Source: an uncultured archaeon | Lineage (GTDB): Archaea; Thermoproteota; Nitrososphaeria; JACIWG01 | Assembly (NCBI GenBank): GCA_938034445.1 | Contig: CALHLD010000022.1 | Span: 1 to 34,463, forward strand | Reading direction: 5' to 3' | DNA: 34,463 nt | Shown here: positions 4,863 through 34,463 of the stretch, piece by piece | How the letters are laid out: each line of letters opens with the position of its first letter | Numbering within the stretch: the first letter of the stretch is position 1 | Translations under genes and position numbers: made by a program | The notes under the pieces: generated by a model | Database searches by the model: none | Told to the model about the DNA's origin: nothing | What the model saw: the letters and a program-made list of their open reading frames with translations, nothing else

Positions 4863-5525
4863 CTATTTTAAGCCTATTTTCTCCTTTATAAGGGATATCT
4901 CATGTTCTATTTTAGCGAACCTTTCTTCCATAAAACTTCTAAAATCGTATCTAAGCATCCTTACCTCGTTTATCAAAGTATCCTGTTTCCCCAGCATTAA
5001 ATCCTGTTTCTTTAGCATGAGATCTTGTTTCTCCAGCATTTGATCTTGCCTCTTTAACATTAAATCCTGTTTTTCTAGCATTTTATCCTGTTTCTCTAGC
5101 ATTTTATCCTGCTTCTCTAGCATTTTATCCTGTTTTTCTAGCATAAGATCCTGTTTTCCAAGCATTAGGTCCTGTTTTTCAAGCAACTTATTTTGTCCAT
5201 CTAGTAAATCCAATCCTACGTTCACAATTTTTGTAAGCTGCTGTAAACTTAAACTTCTATAGAAGCTTTCCACTGAAGTTACTGGACCATCATAGTCTTT
5301 TACACTAATGTTTTTGACCAGCGCATATGGGGGATAAGATTTTGTCACCTCTTTAAGAAAATCTTCTACTAAGATGTCGTCCCCTTCAACTAAAACTTCA
5401 ACGTTTTTGTCAACATTTTTTGCATAAAAACCTTTTAGGCCATAGGATTCGGCTATGTCAAAAAGGAATAGTCTATATCCAACATCTTGAACTCTATCTC
5501 CCTCAATAATAAGTTTTTTCTTCAT
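4863..5525 (-). CDS. Acylphosphatase-like domain fused to a ten-heptad coiled coil
   Basis: Residues 1-80 form an acylphosphatase-type domain. The GxRVQxVGYR loop keeps the phosphate-binding Arg (R18) and the catalytic Asn is present (N37), so it may hydrolyse acyl phosphates or bind such groups. A conserved ESFYRSLSL segment (86-94) links it to ten tandem heptads of the form (K/R)QDxMLx at residues 117-186, which should form a long coiled coil, and a charged helical tail follows. Typical acylphosphatases stop near 90 residues, so the tail is an addition. A TTTAAATA box about 27 bases upstream suggests a leaderless mRNA. A shorter paralogue lies near 17 kb. Its cellular role is unknown; the coil suggests oligomerisation or a partner-binding rod. 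Confidence 0.8.
   Translation of the reverse strand: MKKKLIIEGDRVQDVGYRLFLFDIAESYGLKGFYAKNVDKNVEVLVEGDDILVEDFLKEVTKSYPPYALVKNISVKDYDGPVTSVESFYRSLSLQQLTKIVNVGLDLLDGQNKLLEKQDLMLGKQDLMLEKQDKMLEKQDKMLEKQDKMLEKQDLMLKRQDQMLEKQDLMLKKQDLMLGKQDTLINEVRMLRYDFRSFMEERFAKIEHEISLIKEKIGLK
4968..5177 (-). repeat. In-frame 21-bp tandem repeats (ten units) encoding heptads
   Basis: Ten adjacent 21-base units inside the acylphosphatase-like gene, each encoding one (K/R)QDxMLx heptad. Units differ at a few positions, mostly codon 4 (Leu/Lys/Gln/Thr) and codon 7 (Glu/Lys/Gly/Asn). Near identity at the DNA level points to recent expansion or ongoing homogenisation, so copy number may vary between strains. Confidence 0.85.
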
Positions 5526-5603: not shown

Positions 5604-6020
5604 TTATTTGACACTCTTAATTAATATTGCTGGACACACTCTTATAACACCATCTAACCCATCAATCCTTCTATGTACCTCCTCTAAACTATCTATTTTA
5701 TCTGTAACAATTTCAGCCAACATCATATGATCTCCACTAGTTAACATTATTGTCTTGACCTCGTTAAATGTTTTCAACTTTTCAATGACCTTCCAAAGCT
5801 TTTCTGGCACGGTATCTATTCCAGTTAATGATGCGATATATCCTACCTTTTGATAATCTATTATAGCCTTATAGCCAACTATTATACCGGAACTTTCAAG
5901 CTTTTTCAGCCTCTTTCTTACAGCCGCCTCTGTAAGATTAAGTCTTCTAGCTAAAACAGCCTTTGACGTTCTAGCATTTCTCATTAAAATTTCTATAATT
6001 GTATTGTCAACTTCATCCAT
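5604..6020 (-). CDS. Lrp/AsnC family transcriptional regulator
   Basis: DNA-binding regulator of the feast/famine type. The N-terminal winged helix-turn-helix (about residues 5-55, with SKAVLARRLNLTEAAVRKRL) is followed by the ligand-binding, octamer-forming RAM domain, with the usual MMLAEIVTD-type strand near residue 105. Length (138 aa) is slightly below the usual 150. It is divergent from the peroxiredoxin gene and the two share a 63-base intergenic region with one symmetrical TATA-like box, so it may control itself and the peroxiredoxin. Its ligand is unknown. Confidence 0.88.
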   Translation of the reverse strand: MDEVDNTIIEILMRNARTSKAVLARRLNLTEAAVRKRLKKLESSGIIVGYKAIIDYQKVGYIASLTGIDTVPEKLWKVIEKLKTFNEVKTIMLTSGDHMMLAEIVTDKIDSLEEVHRRIDGLDGVIRVCPAILIKSVK

Positions 6021-18510: not shown

Positions 18511-19023
18511 ATGCTTGGCTTAAAATATAGGCGGACTAGGACTCTGATAGAAGTCAACAACATTCTCAATCCCACTCTAAGGACTATTGTAGAATATTAT
18601 AATAGTGGCATGCCAGTAAAGGAGATTGCGAAAAAGCTAGGCTATTCTGTTAACACAATAGAAGCATACCTTTATAAGGCTAGACATCCAGAAAAAGTTA
18701 GAGAAGGAAACTTGAAAAGAATAGAAAAGTTTTGGCAAAAGAATTTTGAGAAAAGGTTCAAACCAAGCCTAACATTCAACATACCTGGCACGGGAAGGAG
18801 AAGCGAGTGCAGAATATGGCTTCTCGAGCTATTTGCAAGCAAAAAGCTGCAAAACAGAAAAATATACTTTAACACACAAGAAGAAAGAATAAATTTCCTA
18901 ACACAACTTTTTATGGGACAGAATATAGAAGGTAGAAGGAAAGCAATACTAACGATGTGGCTCAAAGATAACTTCCTAACACCAGAAGAGATCGAAAAAT
19001 TTTACGGGAGTATAATATCATGA
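18511..19023 (+). CDS. Helix-turn-helix protein of unknown family
   Basis: 170 aa. Residues about 23-62 look like a LuxR/sigma-4-type HTH (IVEYYNSGMPVKEIAKKLG then YSVNTIEAYLYKARHPEKV). The remainder is basic and helical, with a FNIPGTGRRSECRIWLLEL segment and an E/K-rich C terminus (LTPEEIEKFYGSIIS); I do not recognise that domain. An in-frame stop nine bases upstream limits the start to this ATG or a later codon. It is followed on the same strand by the mannonate dehydratase gene and could regulate it, but there is a separate promoter-like region between them. Confidence 0.6.
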   Translation: MLGLKYRRTRTLIEVNNILNPTLRTIVEYYNSGMPVKEIAKKLGYSVNTIEAYLYKARHPEKVREGNLKRIEKFWQKNFEKRFKPSLTFNIPGTGRRSECRIWLLELFASKKLQNRKIYFNTQEERINFLTQLFMGQNIEGRRKAILTMWLKDNFLTPEEIEKFYGSIIS

Positions 19024-21307: not shown

Positions 21308-21330
21308 CTTTTATAACATTGTTATAAAAG
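21308..21330. promoter_or_regulatory. Operator-like palindrome, site 1 (upstream of the ThiF-like gene)
   Basis: Perfect inverted repeat of 11 bases around one central base. The half-site is CTTTTATAACA, core AACATTGTT. It contains TATA-like sequence on both strands, so a bound protein should block the promoter. It is the most complete copy of the element found seven times between 21.3 and 34 kb. Confidence 0.75.
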
Positions 21331-21341
21331 TATGTTGGGTG

Positions 21342-22415
21342 ATGTACTTGTTATCATTAGATAATGAATTGAATGATGAAGAATTAGAAAGGTACTCTCG
21401 TCAGATAATCTTAAAGTATATTGGCTATAGTGGTCAGCTAAAGCTTAAACGGGCAAGAGCATGTATTGTTGGATTGGGTGGTTTAGGCTCAATTCTTGCC
21501 CTGCAGCTTACTGCTATGGGCTTTGGATACATAAGACTTGTTGACAGGGATGTCGTGGAAAGATCAAATCTTCATAGGCAGGTTATCTATGATGTGGATT
21601 CTATGGGCCTTTCAAAAGCTGAAGTTGCTTATGAGAAACTGAGAAAGTTGAATCCTAACGTGGAATTGGAGCCCTTTCCTATTTCAGTAAACGATTTGAC
21701 GGCTGAAGAAGTTGTTAAAGGTGTTGATTTTGTTGTAGACGGTTTTGATAGGATATCACCGAGATATGCCGTAAACAGAGCATGTATAAAACTTGGTATT
21801 CCTTATATATTTGGGGCTGCGTTGGAAACCTACGGAAACGTGTCTACTATAATACCAGGAAAGACGCCCTGCCTTGAATGCATTTTTCCAAGTTTAGATG
21901 ATCGTAGACTACCTACTTGTTCAACGGTAGGGGTTCATCCTTCACTACTTTCTGTGATAGCTAGTATAGAGGCTTCTGAGGCCGTAAACTTAGTGTTAGG
22001 CCGTCCTAGGTTAGCGGGTAAGCTCCTATATTTTGATCTAGCTGAGTTAACCACAGTTGAAGTAAATGTCCCAAGAGCAAGTGATTGTCCTGTATGCAGT
22101 AATAAGGCTATGATTAAAAGATATTTTGATGAAGTTTTGGTTGAAGAGGTTTGTGGTAGGATGGGTTTACCAACACATATTGTTTCTCCAACCAAAATCA
22201 TGAATTTAGACATGGATCATATTAGGGAGCATTTAGTTAGATTAGGTCTAAAAGTAAATAGTGTGGGGAGGCTGGGTATAACATTTGATTTCCAAAACTT
22301 TACCATAAGTATTCTAAAAAGTGGTGTAGTAATAATTGTGGGAGCACGGAATACTACTGATGCAAAAAGTTTGTATAATGAAATCAAAAGTATGCTGTTA
22401 ATGGACCGTGCATAA
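21342..22415 (+). CDS. ThiF/MoeB/HesA-type E1-like adenylyltransferase
   Basis: Activates the C terminus of a ubiquitin-like sulfur carrier (ThiS, MoaD or SAMP-like) by adenylation, the first step of sulfur transfer for thiamine, molybdopterin or tRNA thiolation. Nucleotide loop GLGGLGS at 44-50, zinc ligands C177/C180 and C249/C252, and a candidate catalytic Cys193 (PTCSTVG). An extra domain of about 95 residues follows the zinc site. The frame is open further upstream, but that would place the palindrome and promoter inside the gene. The real start is the ATG here or a TTG two codons on, preceded by GGGTGAT. It lies 23-35 bases ahead of thiI, a likely functional partner. Confidence 0.87.
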   Translation: MYLLSLDNELNDEELERYSRQIILKYIGYSGQLKLKRARACIVGLGGLGSILALQLTAMGFGYIRLVDRDVVERSNLHRQVIYDVDSMGLSKAEVAYEKLRKLNPNVELEPFPISVNDLTAEEVVKGVDFVVDGFDRISPRYAVNRACIKLGIPYIFGAALETYGNVSTIIPGKTPCLECIFPSLDDRRLPTCSTVGVHPSLLSVIASIEASEAVNLVLGRPRLAGKLLYFDLAELTTVEVNVPRASDCPVCSNKAMIKRYFDEVLVEEVCGRMGLPTHIVSPTKIMNLDMDHIREHLVRLGLKVNSVGRLGITFDFQNFTISILKSGVVIIVGARNTTDAKSLYNEIKSMLLMDRA

Positions 22416-22450
22416 ACTCTATTTAAAGAAGTTTAGTTTTGTTAGAAGAT

Positions 22451-23617
22451 ATGGATTTTGATGCAATAGTCATTCATTATGGTGAGATAGGTTTAAAAGG
22501 AAAAAATAGGGTTGGTTTCGAAAAAATTCTCATTAGGAACATAAAAAATTTGTTAGACAATTTTGGAACCTCCGTATACAGGAGATATGGTAGAATTATT
22601 TGTAGGCCAACACTAAAACAGGAAACAATTATCAAAGAGGCTTTAAAGGTAGTGCCTGGAATACAATACTTTGCTTTCGCTATCTCATCAGACCTTTCTT
22701 TAGATAGAATTCAAGAATCCGCTATAAAACTTTTGAGCGAAAAAGAGTTTACAACTTTTAAGGTTGAAGCTAGAAGGTCAAACAAAAATTTTCCATTAAA
22801 TTCATTTGAAATAAACAATAGACTTGGTGCCTCCATAGCTAGAATATTAAATAAAAGGGTGTCAATGAAACCTGATATAAAATTGTATGTTGAAGTTTGT
22901 GAGAAAGAAGCTTTCCTTTATACAGAAAAGTGTGAAAGTTTAGGTGGTCTGCCTGTGGGCTCATCTGGAAAGGTTGTATCTCTCATCTCAGGTGGCATAG
23001 ATAGTCCTGTAGCCTCGTTTCTTATGATGAAGAGGGGGTGTAATGTAGTGTTTGTACACTTTTATAATAGAATAATAAATTCTGACACAGCTGTTTCTAA
23101 ACTAGAAAAAATTGTCAACGTTTTGACAAGGTTTCAGCTAGAATCGAAGCTTTATTTGATCCCTTTTGAAAAACTCCAACTAGAGGTAGTTAAAAATGTT
23201 CCATCAAAATATAGAATGATCATTTACAGGAGGGCTATGGACAGGGTGGCTAACGCGGTCGCTCGAAGAGAGAATGCGAAGGCACTTGTGACAGGAGATA
23301 ACCTTGGGCAGGTCGCATCACAGACCCTAGAAAATTTAAGCGTAATACATAAGGTTTCAGAGGTACAGGTGTTTATGCCGTTGATAGGATTAGATAAGCT
23401 TGAAATCATCAGTATTGCAAAAAAGATTGGAAGCTACGAGTATTCAATACTACCATATCAAGACTGTTGTTCTTTTATGCTGTCTCCACATCCTGCGCTA
23501 AGAGTGACCCTTGAGGAGGTTGAAAAATTGGAGGCTGGTATAAAGTTTGATTCTGAAGAATGTTTGGAAAAGTCAAGGATTGTTGAATTCAAATATAAGC
23601 CATGCCCCTCTACTTAA
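22451..23617 (+). CDS. thiI: tRNA sulfurtransferase ThiI (4-thiouridine synthase)
   Basis: Adenylates U8 of tRNA and inserts sulfur. An N-terminal ferredoxin-like/THUMP region (about residues 1-165) is followed by the PP-loop ATPase domain with SGGIDSPVAS. No rhodanese domain is present, as usual in archaea, so sulfur must come from another donor. A C-rich QDCCSFML segment and a final CPST end the protein. I prefer the ATG at 22451 because TATTTAAAG lies about 25 bases upstream; a TTG four codons earlier is possible. It follows the ThiF-like gene closely. It converges with the YHS gene, whose stop is six bases away. Confidence 0.9.
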   Translation: MDFDAIVIHYGEIGLKGKNRVGFEKILIRNIKNLLDNFGTSVYRRYGRIICRPTLKQETIIKEALKVVPGIQYFAFAISSDLSLDRIQESAIKLLSEKEFTTFKVEARRSNKNFPLNSFEINNRLGASIARILNKRVSMKPDIKLYVEVCEKEAFLYTEKCESLGGLPVGSSGKVVSLISGGIDSPVASFLMMKRGCNVVFVHFYNRIINSDTAVSKLEKIVNVLTRFQLESKLYLIPFEKLQLEVVKNVPSKYRMIIYRRAMDRVANAVARRENAKALVTGDNLGQVASQTLENLSVIHKVSEVQVFMPLIGLDKLEIISIAKKIGSYEYSILPYQDCCSFMLSPHPALRVTLEEVEKLEAGIKFDSEECLEKSRIVEFKYKPCPST

Positions 23618-23623
23618 TAAAAT

Positions 23624-23797
23624 TTAGCAACAGCACATATGATGTTTATGTTCCTTTGCCAAATATTTTGAAGGATTTTGTTGAAAGGCTTTTTGGCAGC
23701 TTTCAGAGCAGAAATAATATGTCTCACCCCCATATTCTATCTTATAGTTTGTCTTTTTAGGGTCAACATCCATATTGCAGACGACATCTTTTACCAT
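23624..23797 (-). CDS. Small YHS-domain metal-binding protein with a His/Cys tail
   Basis: 57 aa. YHS pattern: VCNM (first Cys C7), then YYFCSESCQKAF, which gives a CxxxC pair. The C terminus is HKHHMCCC, a strong soft-metal ligand cluster. It probably binds Cu(I) or a similar metal in the cytoplasm, alongside the HMA protein and the copper ATPase divergent from it. Start chosen at the Met before KDVVCNMD because GAGGGGTG lies just upstream and because a longer frame would run through the two operator-like sites. Confidence 0.8.
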   Translation of the reverse strand: MVKDVVCNMDVDPKKTNYKIEYGGETYYFCSESCQKAFQQNPSKYLAKEHKHHMCCC

Positions 23798-23820
23798 ATC
23801 TTTCACACCCCTCTTATTAG

Positions 23821-23835
23821 TTAACGGTGTTATAA
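23821..23835. promoter_or_regulatory. Operator-like palindrome, site 2 (YHS side)
   Basis: TTAACGGTGTTATAA, core AACGGTGTT with one departure from AACANTGTT. It lies 24 bases upstream of the YHS start codon. Centre-to-centre distance to the next site is 35 bases. Confidence 0.55.
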
Positions 23836-23855
23836 ATGTTTTACTAAAAGTAAAT

Positions 23856-23870
23856 ATAACAGTGTTAAAG
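23856..23870. promoter_or_regulatory. Operator-like palindrome, site 3 (HMA-CopA side)
   Basis: ATAACAGTGTTAAAG with a perfect AACANTGTT core. It is only eight bases upstream of the ATG of the HMA protein, at the expected transcription start. With site 2 it covers the divergent promoter region of the copper genes. Confidence 0.65.
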
Positions 23871-23877
23871 TACCTAT

Positions 23878-24117
23878 ATGGTGCCAATGTCTTTAGAAGG
23901 TTTAAAGCACAAAACAATATTTCTCGAAGGACCATTATGCTATTCTTGTATTAAGCGTTTGATAGAAAATGTTAAATTGATTGAAAATGTTGTAGACGCT
24001 AAAGTTAATATTGTTGCAAGCATACTAATAATTTACTTCAACGATAATATCAATTTAGAGAAGGTTAAGAATGTTATTGAAATGTCTGGTTTTAAAATTA
24101 CTGTTTTAAGAGGTTGA
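23878..24117 (+). CDS. HMA-domain copper chaperone-like protein
   Basis: 79 aa with the ferredoxin-like HMA pattern: LCYSCIKRLIENV (CxxC on the first loop/helix), the middle ENVVDAKVNIVASILIIYF strand pair and a final VKNVIEMSGFKI helix. It should carry Cu(I) to the P-type ATPase encoded ten bases downstream, which itself lacks an HMA domain. The metal loop CYSC differs from the common MxCxxC. An internal Met at codon 4 is an alternative start. Confidence 0.8.
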   Translation: MVPMSLEGLKHKTIFLEGPLCYSCIKRLIENVKLIENVVDAKVNIVASILIIYFNDNINLEKVKNVIEMSGFKITVLRG

Positions 24118-24126
24118 AATTGTAGG

Positions 24127-26271
24127 ATGGCCAAGGATCCAGTTTGTGGAATGCATGTTGATGAAAATAGAACACCATTTAAAGTTGAAAAAGGTGGTAT
24201 AACGTACTACTTTTGCAGTCAAAGCTGTTTAGACACTTTCCTCAAGCCTGAAAGGGAACTTAGTAACTTAAAGAGGATGACAGCATTTGCTTTAACTGTA
24301 GGTTCTGTCATAGCTTTCCTCGAATACGTTTATCCAATAAACTATGTTTTTCCAAACTATTTCTGGCTTTTTATTTTAGCGACTCCCGTTCAGTTTATTG
24401 CAGGTTGGCGTTTTTACCTAGGCACAAGAGACGCTATAATCGCTAGGCAAGCCAACATGGACAGCCTAATTGCTATAGGTACAACAGCCGCTTGGCTATA
24501 CAGTACAATATATACGTTCCAGACGCTAGGTTGGATTCCTCAGCTTTTTCCAAAAGTTTCTACTGGCGTTTCTGAAGTCTACTTTACTGAAAGTGGGTTG
24601 ATAATAGGTTTTATCTTACTAGGCAAGACTATGGAGCATATAGTTAAGGGGAAGGCTTCAGATGCGATAAGGAAGCTTCTGGAACTTCAGCCTAAAATGG
24701 CCAGGGTTCTAGAAGGTGATGTGGAAAGGGAAGTTCCTGCCGAAGAGGTTAAGGTAGATGATATTGTTGTTGTTCGTCCTGGTGAAAGGATTCCAGTTGA
24801 TGGAGTTGTAGTAGAAGGCTATTCTTGGGTTGACCAGTCTATTGTAACTGGTGAAAGTGTTCCTGTTGAAAAGAAGGTTGGTGATGAAGTAATGTGTGCC
24901 TCCATAAATAGGGCTGGTGTTCTAAAAATTAAGGCGATAAAAGTAGGCTCTGACACCTCTCTTGCACAGATTGTTAAAATGGTTGAGGAAGCCATAGTTT
25001 CTAAAGCGCCCATTCAGAGGCTTGCTGATTTTGTATCCTCATATTTTGTGCCAGTTGTTATTGCTATTGCGATATTGTCCTTCTTGTTCTGGTATACTGT
25101 GGGAGGCTTACCGTTTGGTCTTTCCTTGACAATAATGATTTCTGTGCTCGTTATTGCATGTCCCTGTGCTTTGGGAATTGCTACACCATCGGCTATAATG
25201 ATTGGTGCAAGTAAAGGTGCGCAGTATGGTGTGCTAATTAAGGGTGGAGAATACCTTGAAAAAGCTTACAAGATAAATGTTATCGTATTTGACAAGACGG
25301 GAACTCTCACTGAAGGAAAGCCTACTGTAACAGATATTATTGCTGTAGAAGATGAAAATGAAGATAGGATATTAGAGTTTGCAGCCTTAGCTGAAAGGGG
25401 TTCGGAGCATCCATTAGGGTTAGCAATTGTAGAGGCTGCTAGGGGAAAGGGGATTAATCCTCCATATCCTGAATCTTTCGAAGCTGTACCTGGGAAAGGT
25501 GTTATAGCACTGTTTGATGGAAACGAAATACTTTTAGGAAATAGAAGGTTGATGCTCGACCATAATATTCTGATAGAACATGTTGAAGATATTTTAAAAA
25601 GATTAGAGGATGAAGGAAAAACTTTAGTAATGTTGGCCGTAAACAAGAAGCTCTTAGGAGTTATTGCAATAGCGGATACCCTAAAAGAGTATAGTGATGA
25701 AGTAATTTCTGCCATTAAAAGAATGGGTATCGAAGTTATTATGTTAACTGGAGATAATAGAAGGACTGCTGAAGCTATAGCGAAAAAGTTAGGAATCACA
25801 AGGGTTTACGCGGAAGTACTGCCAGCTGATAAAGTGACAGTTATAAACGATCTAAAGAGCGAGGGAAAAATTGTGGCTATGGTTGGAGATGGAATAAATG
25901 ATGCGCCAGCATTAGCTGCAGCCGATATTGGTATCGCTATAGGAAGTGGTACAGATGTTGCAAAAGAAACGGGCGGAATAGTGCTTGTAAAAGATGATTT
26001 AAGGGACGTTGTTGTAAGTATAGAATTGAGCAAAGCTACTGTAAGAAAGATTAAACAAAACCTTTTCTGGGCATTCTTCTACAATATAGTTTTAATACCT
26101 ATAGCAGCAGGCCTACTTTATCCATTCTTCAAAATATTATTAAATCCGATTTTTGCTGCGATAGCTATGGCCTCAAGTTCAGTAACTGTTGTCTCAAATT
26201 CGCTACTCCTAAACAGGTATAGACCACCGTTAGTAGAAAAATTTATGATGAAACCCCTTCTGATGATGTGA
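24127..26271 (+). CDS. copA: Copper-exporting P1B-type ATPase with N-terminal YHS domain
   Basis: Pumps Cu(I) out of the cell using ATP. The N-terminal YHS domain (1-40; C7, C30, C34) takes the place of the usual HMA domain. Membrane metal site: CPC at 345-347, YN at 652-653 and MASS at 681-684, the set expected for Cu(I) P1B-1 pumps. Catalytic motifs: TGES at 241, phosphorylated D389 in DKTGT, HP at 428-429, TGDN at 541 and GDGINDAP at 587. 714 aa, intact. It is in one operon with the HMA protein. A degenerate second copy lies near 30.5-31.3 kb. Confidence 0.95.
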   Translation: MAKDPVCGMHVDENRTPFKVEKGGITYYFCSQSCLDTFLKPERELSNLKRMTAFALTVGSVIAFLEYVYPINYVFPNYFWLFILATPVQFIAGWRFYLGTRDAIIARQANMDSLIAIGTTAAWLYSTIYTFQTLGWIPQLFPKVSTGVSEVYFTESGLIIGFILLGKTMEHIVKGKASDAIRKLLELQPKMARVLEGDVEREVPAEEVKVDDIVVVRPGERIPVDGVVVEGYSWVDQSIVTGESVPVEKKVGDEVMCASINRAGVLKIKAIKVGSDTSLAQIVKMVEEAIVSKAPIQRLADFVSSYFVPVVIAIAILSFLFWYTVGGLPFGLSLTIMISVLVIACPCALGIATPSAIMIGASKGAQYGVLIKGGEYLEKAYKINVIVFDKTGTLTEGKPTVTDIIAVEDENEDRILEFAALAERGSEHPLGLAIVEAARGKGINPPYPESFEAVPGKGVIALFDGNEILLGNRRLMLDHNILIEHVEDILKRLEDEGKTLVMLAVNKKLLGVIAIADTLKEYSDEVISAIKRMGIEVIMLTGDNRRTAEAIAKKLGITRVYAEVLPADKVTVINDLKSEGKIVAMVGDGINDAPALAAADIGIAIGSGTDVAKETGGIVLVKDDLRDVVVSIELSKATVRKIKQNLFWAFFYNIVLIPIAAGLLYPFFKILLNPIFAAIAMASSSVTVVSNSLLLNRYRPPLVEKFMMKPLLMM

Positions 26272-26313: not shown

Positions 26314-26766
26314 TCATTTAAGAAGCTTAAGTGGTACGTTTACAGTGGGCTCAAGGACAGAAATGTGTATTTCTCTACCACCTAAATCTATAACATGTTT
26401 TGTAGTTTTTGGTGGAAAAATTTTTCCACTAAGCCCTGCCTCTATAACAGAATATTTGGAAATCTCTTTACCATCACGCCATGATCGTACCTTTAAAATT
26501 GGAGAAAAATAGTCTATTAATATTGCCGGAATTTTTAGGCATCCCAACTCCTTTAACACATTCCATCGATGGTGGCCGTCAATGATTATGTGCGTGTTTA
26601 AGTCTATTGCAATAGCCTTTTTTATAAAACCATCTTTTTCTATCTCATTAAGTAATTTAATGAACCTTTTCTTATCAATTTCCTCATGTACAATAAGTTT
26701 ATCTATCTCCATTAGTTTAAGCTTTGTTTTGAGTGATGTTTGTATGTTGGGTGTTTCCAACACCAT
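26314..26766 (-). CDS. ParB-fold protein related to SerK free-serine kinase
   Basis: 150 aa. It carries the DGHHRW motif (63-68), IVHEEID near residue 25-31, IDYF (84-87), KVRSW (92-96) and a late PKTTKHV block (119-125). From memory these blocks occur in the same order in the archaeal ATP/ADP-dependent serine kinase SerK, which makes O-phosphoserine for cysteine synthesis, rather than in chromosome-partition ParB. E29 would correspond to the catalytic acidic residue of SerK. The protein is shorter than the Thermococcus enzyme (about 240 aa), lacking a central insertion, so activity is inferred. The ATG directly abuts operator site 4, so the mRNA is leaderless. Confidence 0.65.
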   Translation of the reverse strand: MVLETPNIQTSLKTKLKLMEIDKLIVHEEIDKKRFIKLLNEIEKDGFIKKAIAIDLNTHIIIDGHHRWNVLKELGCLKIPAILIDYFSPILKVRSWRDGKEISKYSVIEAGLSGKIFPPKTTKHVIDLGGREIHISVLEPTVNVPLKLLK

Positions 26767-26785
26767 TTTATAACGTTGTTATAAA
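26767..26785. promoter_or_regulatory. Operator-like palindrome, site 4 (SerK-like gene)
   Basis: Half-sites TTTATAACG and TGTTATAAA flank a central T. Eight of nine positions are symmetric. It begins on the base next to the start codon and reaches into the presumed TATA box of the SerK-like gene. Confidence 0.65.
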
Positions 26786-26840
26786 TATAAGTTTTATTGA
26801 TACGAGCTTAAATTTAGAAATGTTTTTATACCTAACTTTA

Positions 26841-26853
26841 ATAACACTGTTAT
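26841..26853. promoter_or_regulatory. Operator-like palindrome, site 5 (overlapping a start codon)
   Basis: ATAACACTGTTAT, a perfect six-base inverted repeat around one base. It overlaps the ATG of the four-helix membrane protein. A TATA-like TTTTTATAC ends ten bases upstream, so the element sits on the transcription start of a leaderless mRNA. Confidence 0.65.
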
Positions 26854-27232
26854 GGAAAGCGAGTTTAAACAAAAAATAAATTTAGCTTACGCACTATCCC
26901 TGGCTTCAGGAATCCTTATCCTTTCAACTTCACTAGTTTCTACCTTGATTCGTACTACAGTTAACCCAATAGATTTCGATGAAATCTATCATTGTCCTAT
27001 GACTCATATGATGCCTTTCTTTAATGGAATTTTTTGGTTCTTTTTCCCTTTAGGTATCGTTTCTGGTATAGTGGTGCTTGTTGCTTCACTATTGCTTAAG
27101 GAAAGGCCTAAAGAAAGAATCCCTATAGGTACTCTTATAATAGTCTTCTCTACATTAAGTGTGTTTTCTGGTGGAGGTTTTATAATTGGTGCTCTACTTG
27201 GACTTCTAGGGGGGATTATAGCTATCATCTAA
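26852..27232 (+). CDS. Small four-helix membrane protein, copy 1
   Basis: 126 aa with four hydrophobic segments. A loop with HCPMTHMMPF between helix 1 and helix 2 is rich in soft-metal ligands. After helix 2 comes a basic RPKER turn, then VFSGGGFIIGALLGLLGGII at the C terminus. It is a paralogue of the protein at 32.1 kb, sharing the (K/A)ER turn and the GALLG(L/I) ending. I do not recognise a named family. Placement beside copper genes and the Met/His/Cys loop suggest a metal-related membrane role. It converges with the regulator gene (reading frames meet within four bases). Confidence 0.65.
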   Translation: MESEFKQKINLAYALSLASGILILSTSLVSTLIRTTVNPIDFDEIYHCPMTHMMPFFNGIFWFFFPLGIVSGIVVLVASLLLKERPKERIPIGTLIIVFSTLSVFSGGGFIIGALLGLLGGIIAII

Positions 27233-27552
27233 AAGCCTACATAATTGTCCAATATTTTGCATACGTCACAGAGGTTTAGGTTAACTTTCTCTAAATCTTT
27301 TGTCTCCGCTATCTTCTTGGCCATAGCCTTAATCATATCCATTACCTTCTTATCATCTTCAAGTTTTTTACTAATCTTGCTACCCCTTTTAGAACTTACA
27401 TAGTAGCTTACTGCTGCCTGTGTTATACCAAGCATCTTAGCAACATTAGATTGTGAAAACCCATATTCTTCTACAAGACTTTTTGCAATAAGCCCCCTTA
27501 CAGCGGGTATAATATATCTTGTAACTGACTCACATCGTGATTTGACTATCAT
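27229..27552 (-). CDS. COG2522-type HTH transcriptional regulator, candidate master regulator
   Basis: 107 aa. The N-terminal half matches the archaeal regulator type with IIPAVRGLIAKSLVEEYGFS followed by the HTH QSNVAKMLGITQAAVSYYV and KRG (residues 33-57). This is the HTH found alone in COG2522 or fused to ThiN in ThiR regulators. C7 and the C-terminal C95-x-x-C98 could bind a metal or Fe-S cluster or sense thiols and persulfides. No ThiN domain follows. The start is ATG here or an adjacent TTG one codon earlier; TATA spacing suits either as leaderless. Operator site 6 lies in its own promoter, so autoregulation is likely. Confidence 0.75.
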   Translation of the reverse strand: MIVKSRCESVTRYIIPAVRGLIAKSLVEEYGFSQSNVAKMLGITQAAVSYYVSSKRGSKISKKLEDDKKVMDMIKAMAKKIAETKDLEKVNLNLCDVCKILDNYVGF

Positions 27553-27565
27553 CAAAAATTTAAAG

Positions 27566-27580
27566 TTAACACTGTTTTAA
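27566..27580. promoter_or_regulatory. Operator-like palindrome, site 6 (regulator promoter)
   Basis: TTAACACTGTTTTAA with a perfect AACANTGTT core, located between the presumed TATA box (TATTTAAAAC on the minus strand) and the start of the COG2522-type regulator gene. Confidence 0.65.
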
Positions 27581-29288: not shown

Positions 29289-29762
29289 ATGCTTTGCTGT
29301 TTAGGGCTCTTTGTAGGTTTTGTCATTGGCTCCCTGCTAGGCGGACCATGGTCATTCATCATCCCAGCAATAGGTTTCATTTTAGGTTTCATAGGAGATA
29401 CTCGACTCTCGCGAGGCTTTCACAAGGGTCATGGAGGCTCTGGAATCGGATGTTGTGGAAGTTCTCATATGCGAAGTGAGAAGACGGAGAAAAGAGCTAA
29501 GGACCCCGTCTGCGGTACGGAAGTTGATGAAACAACAGCACAGTATAGGACGGAGTTTCACGGAAAAACGTACTATTTCTGTTCTTCAATGTGTGAATCT
29601 ACATTTAAGGAGAATCCGAGAGATATGTTAAATGATTACAAAGAAGGCGTATCATGGCGTGAGGCTGGCAGAGAGACTGCTACAAAAATGTTCAAACTTT
29701 TAGATAATCCTTCATTTCTCCTCCTCGAGAAGCTATCTGTAGCAGTCCTAAATTTCCAGTAG
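29289..29762 (+). CDS. Membrane protein with YHS domain
   Basis: 157 aa. The first 37 residues contain one or two hydrophobic segments (CCLGLFVGFVIGSLLGG and IIPAIGFILGFIG), then a His/Gly/Cys-rich linker (GFHKGHGGSGIGCCGSSH), then a YHS domain: DPVCG with C75, and YYFCSSMCESTF with C98 and C102. The tail of about 50 residues is not typical and the reading may have been extended by an upstream-altered stop. It probably presents a metal-binding domain at the membrane. First gene of a second copper-type cluster. A TATA-like box fits a leaderless start. Confidence 0.7.
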   Translation: MLCCLGLFVGFVIGSLLGGPWSFIIPAIGFILGFIGDTRLSRGFHKGHGGSGIGCCGSSHMRSEKTEKRAKDPVCGTEVDETTAQYRTEFHGKTYYFCSSMCESTFKENPRDMLNDYKEGVSWREAGRETATKMFKLLDNPSFLLLEKLSVAVLNFQ

Positions 29763-29793
29763 GAAGTAGTTGTTATAGGCGGAGCGTGATTAC

Positions 29794-30561
29794 TTGAACC
29801 TATTTGGTGACTGGTTTCTGGTAATCACATCCATCCTGTTGTTCACAGCTTTCATCTTAGCTTTTATCAAGCCTATTAGAAAAAGAGATTGGAAAAGCTT
29901 AAGTCTGTATGAAGCCTTTATCGTTTCATTGTTCACGGAAATGTTTGGAATACCACTTACGATTTACATTCTATCTTCCTTAGGCTTACCTCTCGTGGCT
30001 GATCCTTTGCAGGGGCATCTTCTCGCTGCGTTACTTGCTCTGGTAGGTGTATGGGACTTAGAAACAGGAGTGACTGTTGTGATGGTTGTTAGCCTTCTCA
30101 TGCTTTTGTTAGGTGGCTACCTTGTGGTAACTGGATGGCGTCAAATTTACAGCGCGGGGGAACCCCTAGTCACCAATGGTCTTTACGGCGTTGTCAGGCA
30201 CCCTCAATACTTGGGTATAATTATTGGCACAGCCGCCTTTCTCATACAATGGCCAACAATAATAACGGTTGCTATGTGGCCTATCCTAACTTACGCCTAT
30301 TATCGGCAGGCCAAAAGAGAAGAAGAAGAGCTGCAAGAAAAGTTTGGAGAAGAATATTGCCGATACAAAGAGAGTGCCTATGATGATTCCGCGTTTGAAG
30401 TTCAGATAGACACAGGAGGCGCGGAACTTACGGTAAGAGACCTCATACGTGGCAGGGACATAGATAAGGAAAAGCCATTAAAAGAAGGTTTGGCGATAAA
30501 ACATACTATTTTTGCAGTGAAACTTACGCCAGAAGCTACGAGCAATCAGAACAAGAGTTGA
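29794..30561 (+). CDS. Isoprenylcysteine/phospholipid methyltransferase-like membrane protein with an altered C terminus
   Basis: Integral membrane protein of the ICMT/PEMT superfamily. Hydrophobic helices occupy residues 1-125, followed by the family motif LVTNGLYGVVRHPQYLG and a C-terminal EEELQEKFGEEYCRYKE. These elements bind S-adenosylmethionine. The last 50 or so residues do not fit the family and read in another frame through a YHS fragment of the following CopA pseudogene, so the original C terminus has probably been lost and the frame extended. The start is a TTG with a GGAG/GTGAT-type leader. Substrate unknown; such genes often accompany metal-resistance clusters. Confidence 0.75.
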   Translation: MNLFGDWFLVITSILLFTAFILAFIKPIRKRDWKSLSLYEAFIVSLFTEMFGIPLTIYILSSLGLPLVADPLQGHLLAALLALVGVWDLETGVTVVMVVSLLMLLLGGYLVVTGWRQIYSAGEPLVTNGLYGVVRHPQYLGIIIGTAAFLIQWPTIITVAMWPILTYAYYRQAKREEEELQEKFGEEYCRYKESAYDDSAFEVQIDTGGAELTVRDLIRGRDIDKEKPLKEGLAIKHTIFAVKLTPEATSNQNKS

Positions 30562-31258
30562 AGGCTATAAAACACCGAGTAACTCTAGCGCTTGCTAGCG
30601 TCGTAAGCGTCGCCGCCCTACGCCTCATAGCTATGTTCGGCTTAGCTGTGGCGATAATGACTTTCCAAATTGTTGGAATCCCAGCTTGGGACCTAGCCTT
30701 CTTCATCTTGTCAACGCCAGAAAATTGACAAAAGTCGTCTTTGATAAGACTGGCACATTGACAAAGGGTGAGTCTCAATAACAGACTTTGCAGGCTACAA
30801 GGAAGATGAGGTCTTGATGTAGCGGCAATTTCGGAGAAGGATTCAGAACATCCATTAACTGGAGCAATAGTGAAAGCCGCCAACAAAGCAAAATTAAAAT
30901 TCCAGACGCTGATCCGTTTGAGGTAGTTCCTGAGCATGGAGTCAAAACTTCCTACAAAAACAAGCAATTTCTCTTCATAAGCATAGCCATAGGTAACGGA
31001 ACAGACATTGCAAAGGAAACGGGCGGAATAGTTCTCATAAAAGATGATTTGCGTGGTGTAGCGCGGGGAATAAAACTTAGTAAGGCAACGATAAGAAAGA
31101 TAAAGCATAACTTGTTCTGGGTTTTCATATACCATGTAGTTGCTATCCCAACAGCCGCCATTGGATTGCTAAGTCCAATCATAGCTGCTTGTGTAATAGC
31201 TTTCAGCTCGCTTTTTGTGGTAAGTAACTTGGCAACACTAAAACTTCTAAAATTATAA
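30477..31258 (+). pseudogene. Degenerate second copper P-type ATPase with internal deletions
   Basis: Three separate pieces of a CopA-like protein in different frames. Piece 1 (to about 30728): YHS end (GDKTYYFCSETYARSYEQ) plus first helices, ending in ILSTPEN, equal to residues 22-87 of the intact pump. Piece 2: the phosphorylation motif VVFDKTGTLTKGE, then SEHPLTGAIVKAA with frameshifts between. Piece 3: GNGTDIAKETGGIVLIKDD to the C terminus. Missing are the transmembrane metal site with CPC, the actuator domain TGES, TGDN and GDGxND. It cannot make a working pump. The pieces are clearly diverged from the intact copy, so it is an old or foreign paralogue, not a recent duplicate. Confidence 0.88.
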
Positions 31259-31282
31259 ACGTGAACAGAGGTGAATTCATGC

Positions 31283-31426
31283 ATGGCGAAAGATTCTGTT
31301 TGCGGCATGGATCTGGACGAAAACGCCAAGTTCTGGTTGGAACATATGGGCAAAACCTACTACTTCTGCAACACAGCTTACATAGAAAGGTTTAAGGCTA
31401 ACTCTAACACGTACATGAGAAAGTAA
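31283..31426 (+). CDS. Mini YHS-domain protein
   Basis: 47 aa: KDSVCGMDLDE, then GKTYYFCNTAYIERF. A GAGGTGA ribosome binding site lies eight bases before the ATG. The second Cys of the usual CxxxC pair is Tyr, as in the YHS remnant of the neighbouring pseudogene. It follows the CopA pseudogene on the same strand and could be a remaining functional part of that cluster, or itself a fragment. Confidence 0.65.
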   Translation: MAKDSVCGMDLDENAKFWLEHMGKTYYFCNTAYIERFKANSNTYMRK

Positions 31427-33934: not shown

Positions 33935-33953
33935 TTTATAACAGTGTTATAGA
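33935..33953. promoter_or_regulatory. Operator-like palindrome, site 7 (tusA promoter)
   Basis: TTTATAACA and TGTTATAGA around a central G, eight of nine positions symmetric, perfect AACANTGTT core. It lies nine bases upstream of the tusA start codon and just after a TTTATAAAT TATA-like box (33922-33930). Confidence 0.7.
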
Positions 33954-33962
33954 TGGTGGTGT

Positions 33963-34211
33963 ATGAACATAGGAAAGGTTTCAAACGGAAAATATTTGGT
34001 TGACCTTAAGGGTCTTGTCTGCCCCTATCCGGTTCTATTCACTAAAAAGGCTCTTGAAAAATTAAAGAGTGGAGAAATTCTTGAAATAGTAATCGATAAC
34101 CCGCCTTCATTAGATACAGTACCAGAAGCAGTTAAAGCCTCAGGCCACGAAATTGTGGAAGTTATCGAAATTGAACCTTCAGTCTGGAAGATTAGTGTAA
34201 GGAAGAGGTGA
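33963..34211 (+). CDS. tusA: TusA/SirA-family sulfurtransferase
   Basis: 82 aa, two-layer alpha/beta TusA fold. It receives and passes persulfide sulfur through C20 in the CPxP motif (LVCPYPVLFTKKAL). A GGTGG ribosome binding site lies just upstream of the ATG. It is the first gene of an operon with a SelD-like protein (GTG six bases after its stop) and stands under operator-like site 7. Confidence 0.92.
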   Translation: MNIGKVSNGKYLVDLKGLVCPYPVLFTKKALEKLKSGEILEIVIDNPPSLDTVPEAVKASGHEIVEVIEIEPSVWKISVRKR

Positions 34212-34217
34212 AAAAGC

Positions 34218-34463
34218 GTGGATAATAATGTTTTTGGAAAATACAATAAAATTGGAGTGAATCCTCTAGAGCTTGCATGTGGTTGTGCTGTTAAAGTTGA
34301 CCTCTATGATGTAGTCTATCCGGCTGTAGGTGAACTTAGAAACAAATTTAGAGGTAGAGGTCTTGAAATTTCTCCAAGAAATGATGCAGAGATTGTGAAA
34401 GCGAAGGAGATTATAGAAATCTATAGGCGCTTCTATGCTCTTGGTGATAAAGCTAACGTTGAC
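34218..34463 (+). CDS. SelD-like (AIR synthase-related) protein, 3' end cut by window edge
   Basis: The first 82 residues are visible. NPLELACGCAVKVD (C21, C23) recalls the active-site GCGCK loop of selenide, water dikinase SelD. The following residues (RNKFRGRGLEISPRNDAE) do not settle the family. The GTG start has a GAGGTGA ribosome binding site six bases upstream, within the end of tusA. I think a SelD-like ATP-dependent phosphotransferase for a sulfur or selenium compound is most likely, but the ATP-binding and metal parts lie outside the window. Pairing with tusA suggests that TusA hands it a chalcogen. Confidence 0.55.
   Translation, partial: MDNNVFGKYNKIGVNPLELACGCAVKVDLYDVVYPAVGELRNKFRGRGLEISPRNDAEIVKAKEIIEIYRRFYALGDKANVD

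Follow-up and report, generated by a model that had tools for sequence, protein, structure and literature searches.

The small helix-turn-helix (HTH) regulator encoded within the sulfur-related island described here is, at a probability of roughly 0.6, an autoregulated repressor of the COG2522 family that controls a cysteine, sulfur and Fe-S regulon and responds to a cluster or thiol state sensed by its cysteines. The gene lies in a stretch of 34,463 nucleotides of archaeal DNA, referred to as the window. The predicted operator, its conservation, its position in promoters and the content of its targets are supported by sequence comparison. From these we infer that the protein represses, that it binds as a dimer and that its signal is cysteine-based. 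Genomes are numbered with G (G000 is the genome of the window), families with f, loci with L and contigs with C; the genomes compared are for the most part drafts, and their start codons were set by rule.

The open reading frame at 27229-27555 on the minus strand was confirmed, and the ATG at 27552 yields a protein of 107 amino acids. The gene and the operator in its promoter are as follows; here and below, operators are given without a strand.

27229..27552, minus strand: stand-alone COG2522-type HTH regulator, 107 aa, based on the reading frame, the Cys positions, the orthologues, HTH_3 and the AlphaFold2 helices
27565..27579: TAAAACAGTGTTAAC, the operator of the regulator's promoter; it spans -27 to -13 and overlaps the TATA-like TATTTAAAAC; same position in G002 and G001

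The regulator has two known orthologues (G001 and G002), with 75% and 67-68% identity. Its HTH is matched by HTH_3 in the middle of the protein (E 2e-4, slightly below the Pfam cut-off). This is the best of its Pfam matches, among which the ArsR-type HTH_5 is absent, and no Rrf2 domain was matched in Pfam and NCBIfam scans. A PDB fold search with the regulator gave nothing at E<=0.001, and a sequence search gave generic HTH proteins only. Its own genome encodes two more relatives, a paralogue of 143 aa on contig C5 and one of 314 aa on contig C14. The latter carries the same N-terminal HTH type fused to ThiN (PF10120, E 4.6e-42) and is, by this domain content, ThiR; the sequence-only reading was thus right to compare the regulator's HTH with that of ThiR. 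In an alignment of 30 members, C7-E8, P16, R19, S49, Y51, R56 and C98 are invariant or at least 90% conserved. The shared HTH with these positions places the regulator, by sequence, in the COG2522/ThiR-type HTH family, and we take it to belong to COG2522 itself.

The domain scan found ThiN only in the C14 paralogue and not in the 107-aa regulator. Instead of it, as had been predicted from the sequence, about 50 residues follow the HTH, with no additional ligand-binding domain, and the AlphaFold2 model (pLDDT 78) places the CxxC on a C-terminal helix, residues 94-105. The protein has exactly three cysteines, C7, C95 and C98, which agrees with the earlier count. That it is the only stand-alone HTH protein of the island holds for about 21.3-34.5 kb; outside this range, the window has further HTH genes at 18511-19023 and 5604-6020.

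The site in the regulator's own promoter, TAAAACAGTGTTAAC, has three mismatches to TATAACANTGTTATA. It lies at -27 and overlaps the TATA-like TATTTAAAAC in all three species. G002 has exactly the same promoter block, TAAAAGTATTTAAAACAGTGTTAAC; in G001 the site reads TAAAACGCTGTTAAC, at the same place with two bases different. The same palindrome recurs in the promoters of related genes. Across 59 COG2522-type genes of the same class, the 70 bases 5' of the start codon contain TAAC-N3-GTTA in 13 promoters against 0.13 expected, the largest of 300 shuffles giving 1, and the shorter AAC-N3-GTT in 16 against 1.07 expected; 43 of the 59 promoters are without the palindrome. The promoters that bear it belong to families f1, f2, f6, f13 and f16, and the trait changes at least six times on a quick tree. 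Beyond the class, the near-perfect TAATAACATTGTTATTA and ATAACATTGTTAT precede short three-Cys relatives in two f41 genomes. The proposal of the sequence-only reading that this COG2522 protein binds the operator and regulates itself is, as a prediction from sequence, well supported by the conserved site in three species, by the 59 promoters and by the f41 relatives.

It is also conceivable that a different regulator binds these operators and that the COG2522 gene is a mere target. One genome, G004, would agree with this. It has a single likely site, TATTACACTGTTATA, before a TusA-DsrE-IscS (cysteine desulfurase) operon (L080, contig C10, site at 1501); no close regulator orthologue was found in it, and its only COG2522 protein found has no site in its own promoter. 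However, the palindrome recurs in the own promoters of COG2522 genes of five families, far beyond chance, and the regulator clusters physically with targets in f1 and f16, which makes a different binder decidedly unlikely.

The exact TATAAC-N3-GTTATA occurs 56 times, against 3 in reversed controls, in 14 genomes, a count that does not stand for a random sample because these genomes were picked for carrying relatives of interest. In the ammonia-oxidiser-type families f3 and f10, the exact-pattern count is at control level. The ThiR promoters of four genomes (L003, L010, L012, L013) carry another palindrome, TTATTAAACTTTTTTAATAA, and no TAAC-N3-GTTA; TTATTAAACTTTTTTAATAA is probably an operator of ThiR. 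A second COG2522 paralogue (L002, L006, L008) has its own inverted repeat upstream, about ATTACTATTGTAAT. This suggests that every COG2522 paralogue has its own site.

Within the window, 14 operator matches with up to three mismatches were found against 5.3 expected, and none of 100 shuffles reached 14. At up to one mismatch, four of the seven sites of the whole genome fall in the window, which makes up 1.9% of it (binomial p 4.5e-6). At up to two mismatches, the genome holds 50 sites and the reversed controls 62, which is background, so that weak sites elsewhere are untrustworthy. The sites of the island and the genes next to them are listed below.

21312..21326: operator TATAACATTGTTATA before ThiF-ThiI, at -30; exact match, exact in G001 too
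21342..23617, plus strand: ThiF/MoeB-like adenylyltransferase (PF00899, E 5e-68) and ThiI tRNA 4-sulfurtransferase (TIGR00342, E 3e-120)
23624..23797, minus strand: small YHS-domain (metal-binding) protein (PF04945, E 3e-16)
23820..23834: YHS-side operator of the divergent promoter, at -37; paired site in G001 too
23855..23869: operator TATAACAGTGTTAAA, upstream of HMA-CopA; one mismatch, retained in G001 and, with two mismatches, in G002
23878..26271, plus strand: HMA copper-chaperone-like protein (PF00403, E 1e-3) and YHS-fused copper-type P-type ATPase (TIGR01511, E 5e-186)
26314..26766, minus strand: compact homologue of the ADP-dependent free serine kinase SerK (PDB 5x0b, E 6.5e-15; NF053625, E 4e-22)
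26769..26783: operator TATAACGTTGTTATA, upstream of the SerK homologue at -17; retained in G001 as TATAACAATGTTATA, at -16
26840..26854: operator over the start codon of the DUF4064-like gene; the overlap recurs in G001
26852..27232, plus strand: DUF4064-like small membrane protein (PF13273, E 1.5e-5, under the cut-off)
33937..33951: operator TATAACAGTGTTATA before TusA, at -26; exact, exact in G001 too
33963..34463, plus strand: TusA (PF01206, E 1e-21) and the first part of a SelD-related sulfur protein (NF038049, E 6e-161 in G001)

The operator sites of the window recur in G001 and partly in G002; neither the CopA nor the ThiF genes were found in G003. The last 141 bases of the window (34323-34463) are identical to bases 1-141 of contig C47 of the same genome, an exact overlap inside the SelD-related gene, so that the island continues on that contig with the rest of this gene, a YedE/YeeE-type transporter and an FTR1-type permease. 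Further sites lie at a YeeE-type/ferredoxin-AOR-Se/S-carrier locus in G001 and G002, and before IscS-IscU in G000 and G002. In Thermococcus, free serine kinase supplies O-phosphoserine for cysteine (PMC5120207).

Two other readings of these genes were set aside. The match of 26314-26766 to SerK (5x0b, NF053625) displaced a ParB-like reading, and a selenium reading of TusA/SelD/YedE gave way to a sulfur one, as the SelD homologue fits the sulfur-metabolism model NF038049 (536 bits) far above SelD proper. The window also contains a further set of YHS sequence and broken P-type ATPase sequence (29289-31335) that resembles CopA at 24127-26271 and appears to be a decayed copy. In addition, a coding tandem repeat of 21 bases (KQDxMLE heptads) occupies 4958-5230 within the open reading frame 4863-5525, the start of which looks acylphosphatase-like by eye.

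Among the identified genes downstream of sites, three groups recur. SepCysS and cysteine synthase/CBS belong to cysteine synthesis; TusA, DsrE, rhodanese and ThiS/ThiF to sulfur relay; and SufS, SufC, FeS_assembly_P, NUBPL and CDGSH to Fe-S assembly. In G268 (f16), SepCysS adjoins the regulator gene, which carries its own site, and more sites lie near the genes for SepCysS and SufS, near that for a ThrRS editing domain and near a threonine-synthase-like/ThiS pair. Sites are followed by CBS/cysteine synthase in G029, G038 and G020, by CDGSH in G029 and G035, by FeS_assembly_P in G038, by SufC in G020 (Pfam gives an ABC ATPase, which reads as SufC by eye), by FTR1, AOR, rhodanese and NUBPL in G023, by DsrE in G150 and G191, by thioredoxin in G031 and by a pyridine nucleotide-disulphide oxidoreductase in G034. 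Read by eye, SufB-like proteins stand before sites in G016 and G066, and cysteine-synthase- and rhodanese-like proteins in G007 and G195. Some sites precede TFB-like or phosphorylase-like genes with no evident link to sulfur, and a few sites fall within genes. In both f13 genomes (L229 in G191, L231 in G150), the palindrome stands before a gene for a TFB-like transcription factor. The content of the regulon indicates a role in the supply of cysteine, sulfur and Fe-S clusters, one arm of it being copper efflux.

The copper genes fit a metal sensor too. Such a copper or soft-metal sensor would bind Cu(I) with its three cysteines and leave the DNA, thereby inducing the HMA-CopA pair together with the sulfur genes. 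Paired operators at the divergent YHS/HMA-CopA promoter in G000 and G001 agree with this, and a three-Cys site is possible. In other families, however, the targets are mostly cysteine, sulfur and Fe-S genes rather than metal efflux genes, the CopA homologues of G004 and G029 have no exact sites upstream, and the cysteines are family-wide, all of which makes a copper sensor very improbable.

The distribution of the cysteines bears on all readings of the signal. C7, C95 and C98 are retained in both orthologues, as the sequence-only reading had expected of close relatives, and they are at least 90% conserved among the 30 relatives, including members with other promoter palindromes. Many relatives have a second set, C-x2-H...C-x2-C, which is absent from the island protein. 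ThiR retains the N-terminal Cys and the second set and lacks the CxxC. The f2 regulators, which bear the operator, are without C7 and CxxC but retain C-x2-H...C-x2-C. Cys/His clusters are thus a theme of the family, none of them specific to the operator. By this comparison, C7/C95/C98 is a signature of the whole family and does not prove copper or selenium sensing. Because the three cysteines are shared by members with other palindromes, they do not identify the signal, and their earlier use as a pointer to Cu(I) or selenium sensing is not upheld. Nor did the expectation of conserved cysteines next to the same operators extend to the distant f2 regulators.

The cysteines may instead hold zinc in a structural role. 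The signal would then be a small molecule from cysteine metabolism (e.g. O-phosphoserine or cysteine), or the Fe-S status conveyed by a partner. Their near-invariance despite differing operators speaks for this, as does a regulon that includes SerK, SepCysS and cysteine synthase. The tail of about 50 residues with no extra ligand domain, and the f2 regulators that do without C7/C95/C98, speak against it, and we consider it unlikely. Somewhat more credible, though still doubtful, is a thiol or persulfide switch with neither metal nor cluster, in which sulfane sulfur would oxidise or persulfidate the CxxC (with C7) and free the DNA. The CxxC sits on the C-terminal helix, sulfur-relay genes are targets, and a CxxC redox switch has an archaeal precedent in SurR (PMC7278568). 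Against it, C7 is conserved as well as the CxxC, the C-x2-H...C-x2-C added in many relatives looks more like metal or cluster ligands, and Fe-S assembly genes are prominent among the targets.

The autoregulated repressor of a cysteine, sulfur and Fe-S regulon proposed at the outset would work as follows. A dimeric ThiR-type HTH repressor would bind TATAAC-N3-GTTATA operators, which lie across TATA boxes or immediately after them, and by occluding TATA/TSS it would block TBP/TFB or RNA polymerase. The regulon would comprise thiosulfate/sulfur import, TusA, the SelD-like protein, ThiF/ThiI, the serine kinase and IscS/IscU, with copper efflux as its protective arm. In sulfur- or cluster-replete cells, the affinity for DNA would be set by a labile Fe-S cluster on the C7-C95-C98 thiols (or by their thiol/persulfide state), and the loss of this state would release the genes. 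Because the regulon most resembles those of IscR and SufR, our first choice for C7/C95/C98 is an Fe-S cluster or a persulfide state. The f2 regulators that bear the operator but lack C7 and CxxC, the site in G004 with no bearer and the 43 promoters without the palindrome count against this explanation.

Compared with known systems, the regulator shares with ThiR the HTH architecture, the N-terminal Cys-Glu and a palindrome at the autoregulatory position. ThiR differs in having the ThiN ligand domain, no C95/C98 CxxC and the palindrome TTATTAAACTTTTTTAATAA in place of TAAAACAGTGTTAAC. The likeness to IscR (Rrf2) and SufR would lie in autoregulation combined with control of genes for Fe-S assembly and sulfur, here predicted from conserved operators, which stand at the own promoter and before IscS/IscU, SufC, FeS_assembly_P and NUBPL. 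IscR has a Rrf2 winged helix with its Cys in one loop, whereas in the regulator the HTH is of the COG2522 type, Cys are found at either end and the cluster is hypothetical. SurR is an ArsR-type winged HTH protein, and its operator differs from that of the regulator. The cluster ligands of IscR are three Cys and one His (PMC8593673). SurR of the Thermococcales resembles the regulator as an archaeal sulfur-responsive protein with a CxxC switch (PMC7278568). It belongs to an unrelated family and controls hydrogen and S0 metabolism. Another small archaeal thiol-based regulator is the single-domain TrmB-family protein of Haloferax volcanii (PMC9426492). It differs in its TrmB winged helix and its role in oxidative stress and is not a COG2522 protein. 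By analogy, the best reading is that the regulator acts like IscR, SufR or SurR while coming from a different family.

A broader view, which we consider less likely than not, is that stand-alone COG2522 proteins are an archaeal counterpart of IscR. They would be direct Fe-S or persulfide sensors through C7 and CxxC, with a common AAC-N3-GTT operator, and would be ancestral in the Nitrososphaeria at the least and perhaps throughout the Thermoproteota. No mention of COG2522 was found in the literature searched. To our knowledge, this family has almost no known function. These results give a widespread family a predicted operator and regulon, together with a sensing site that can be tested.
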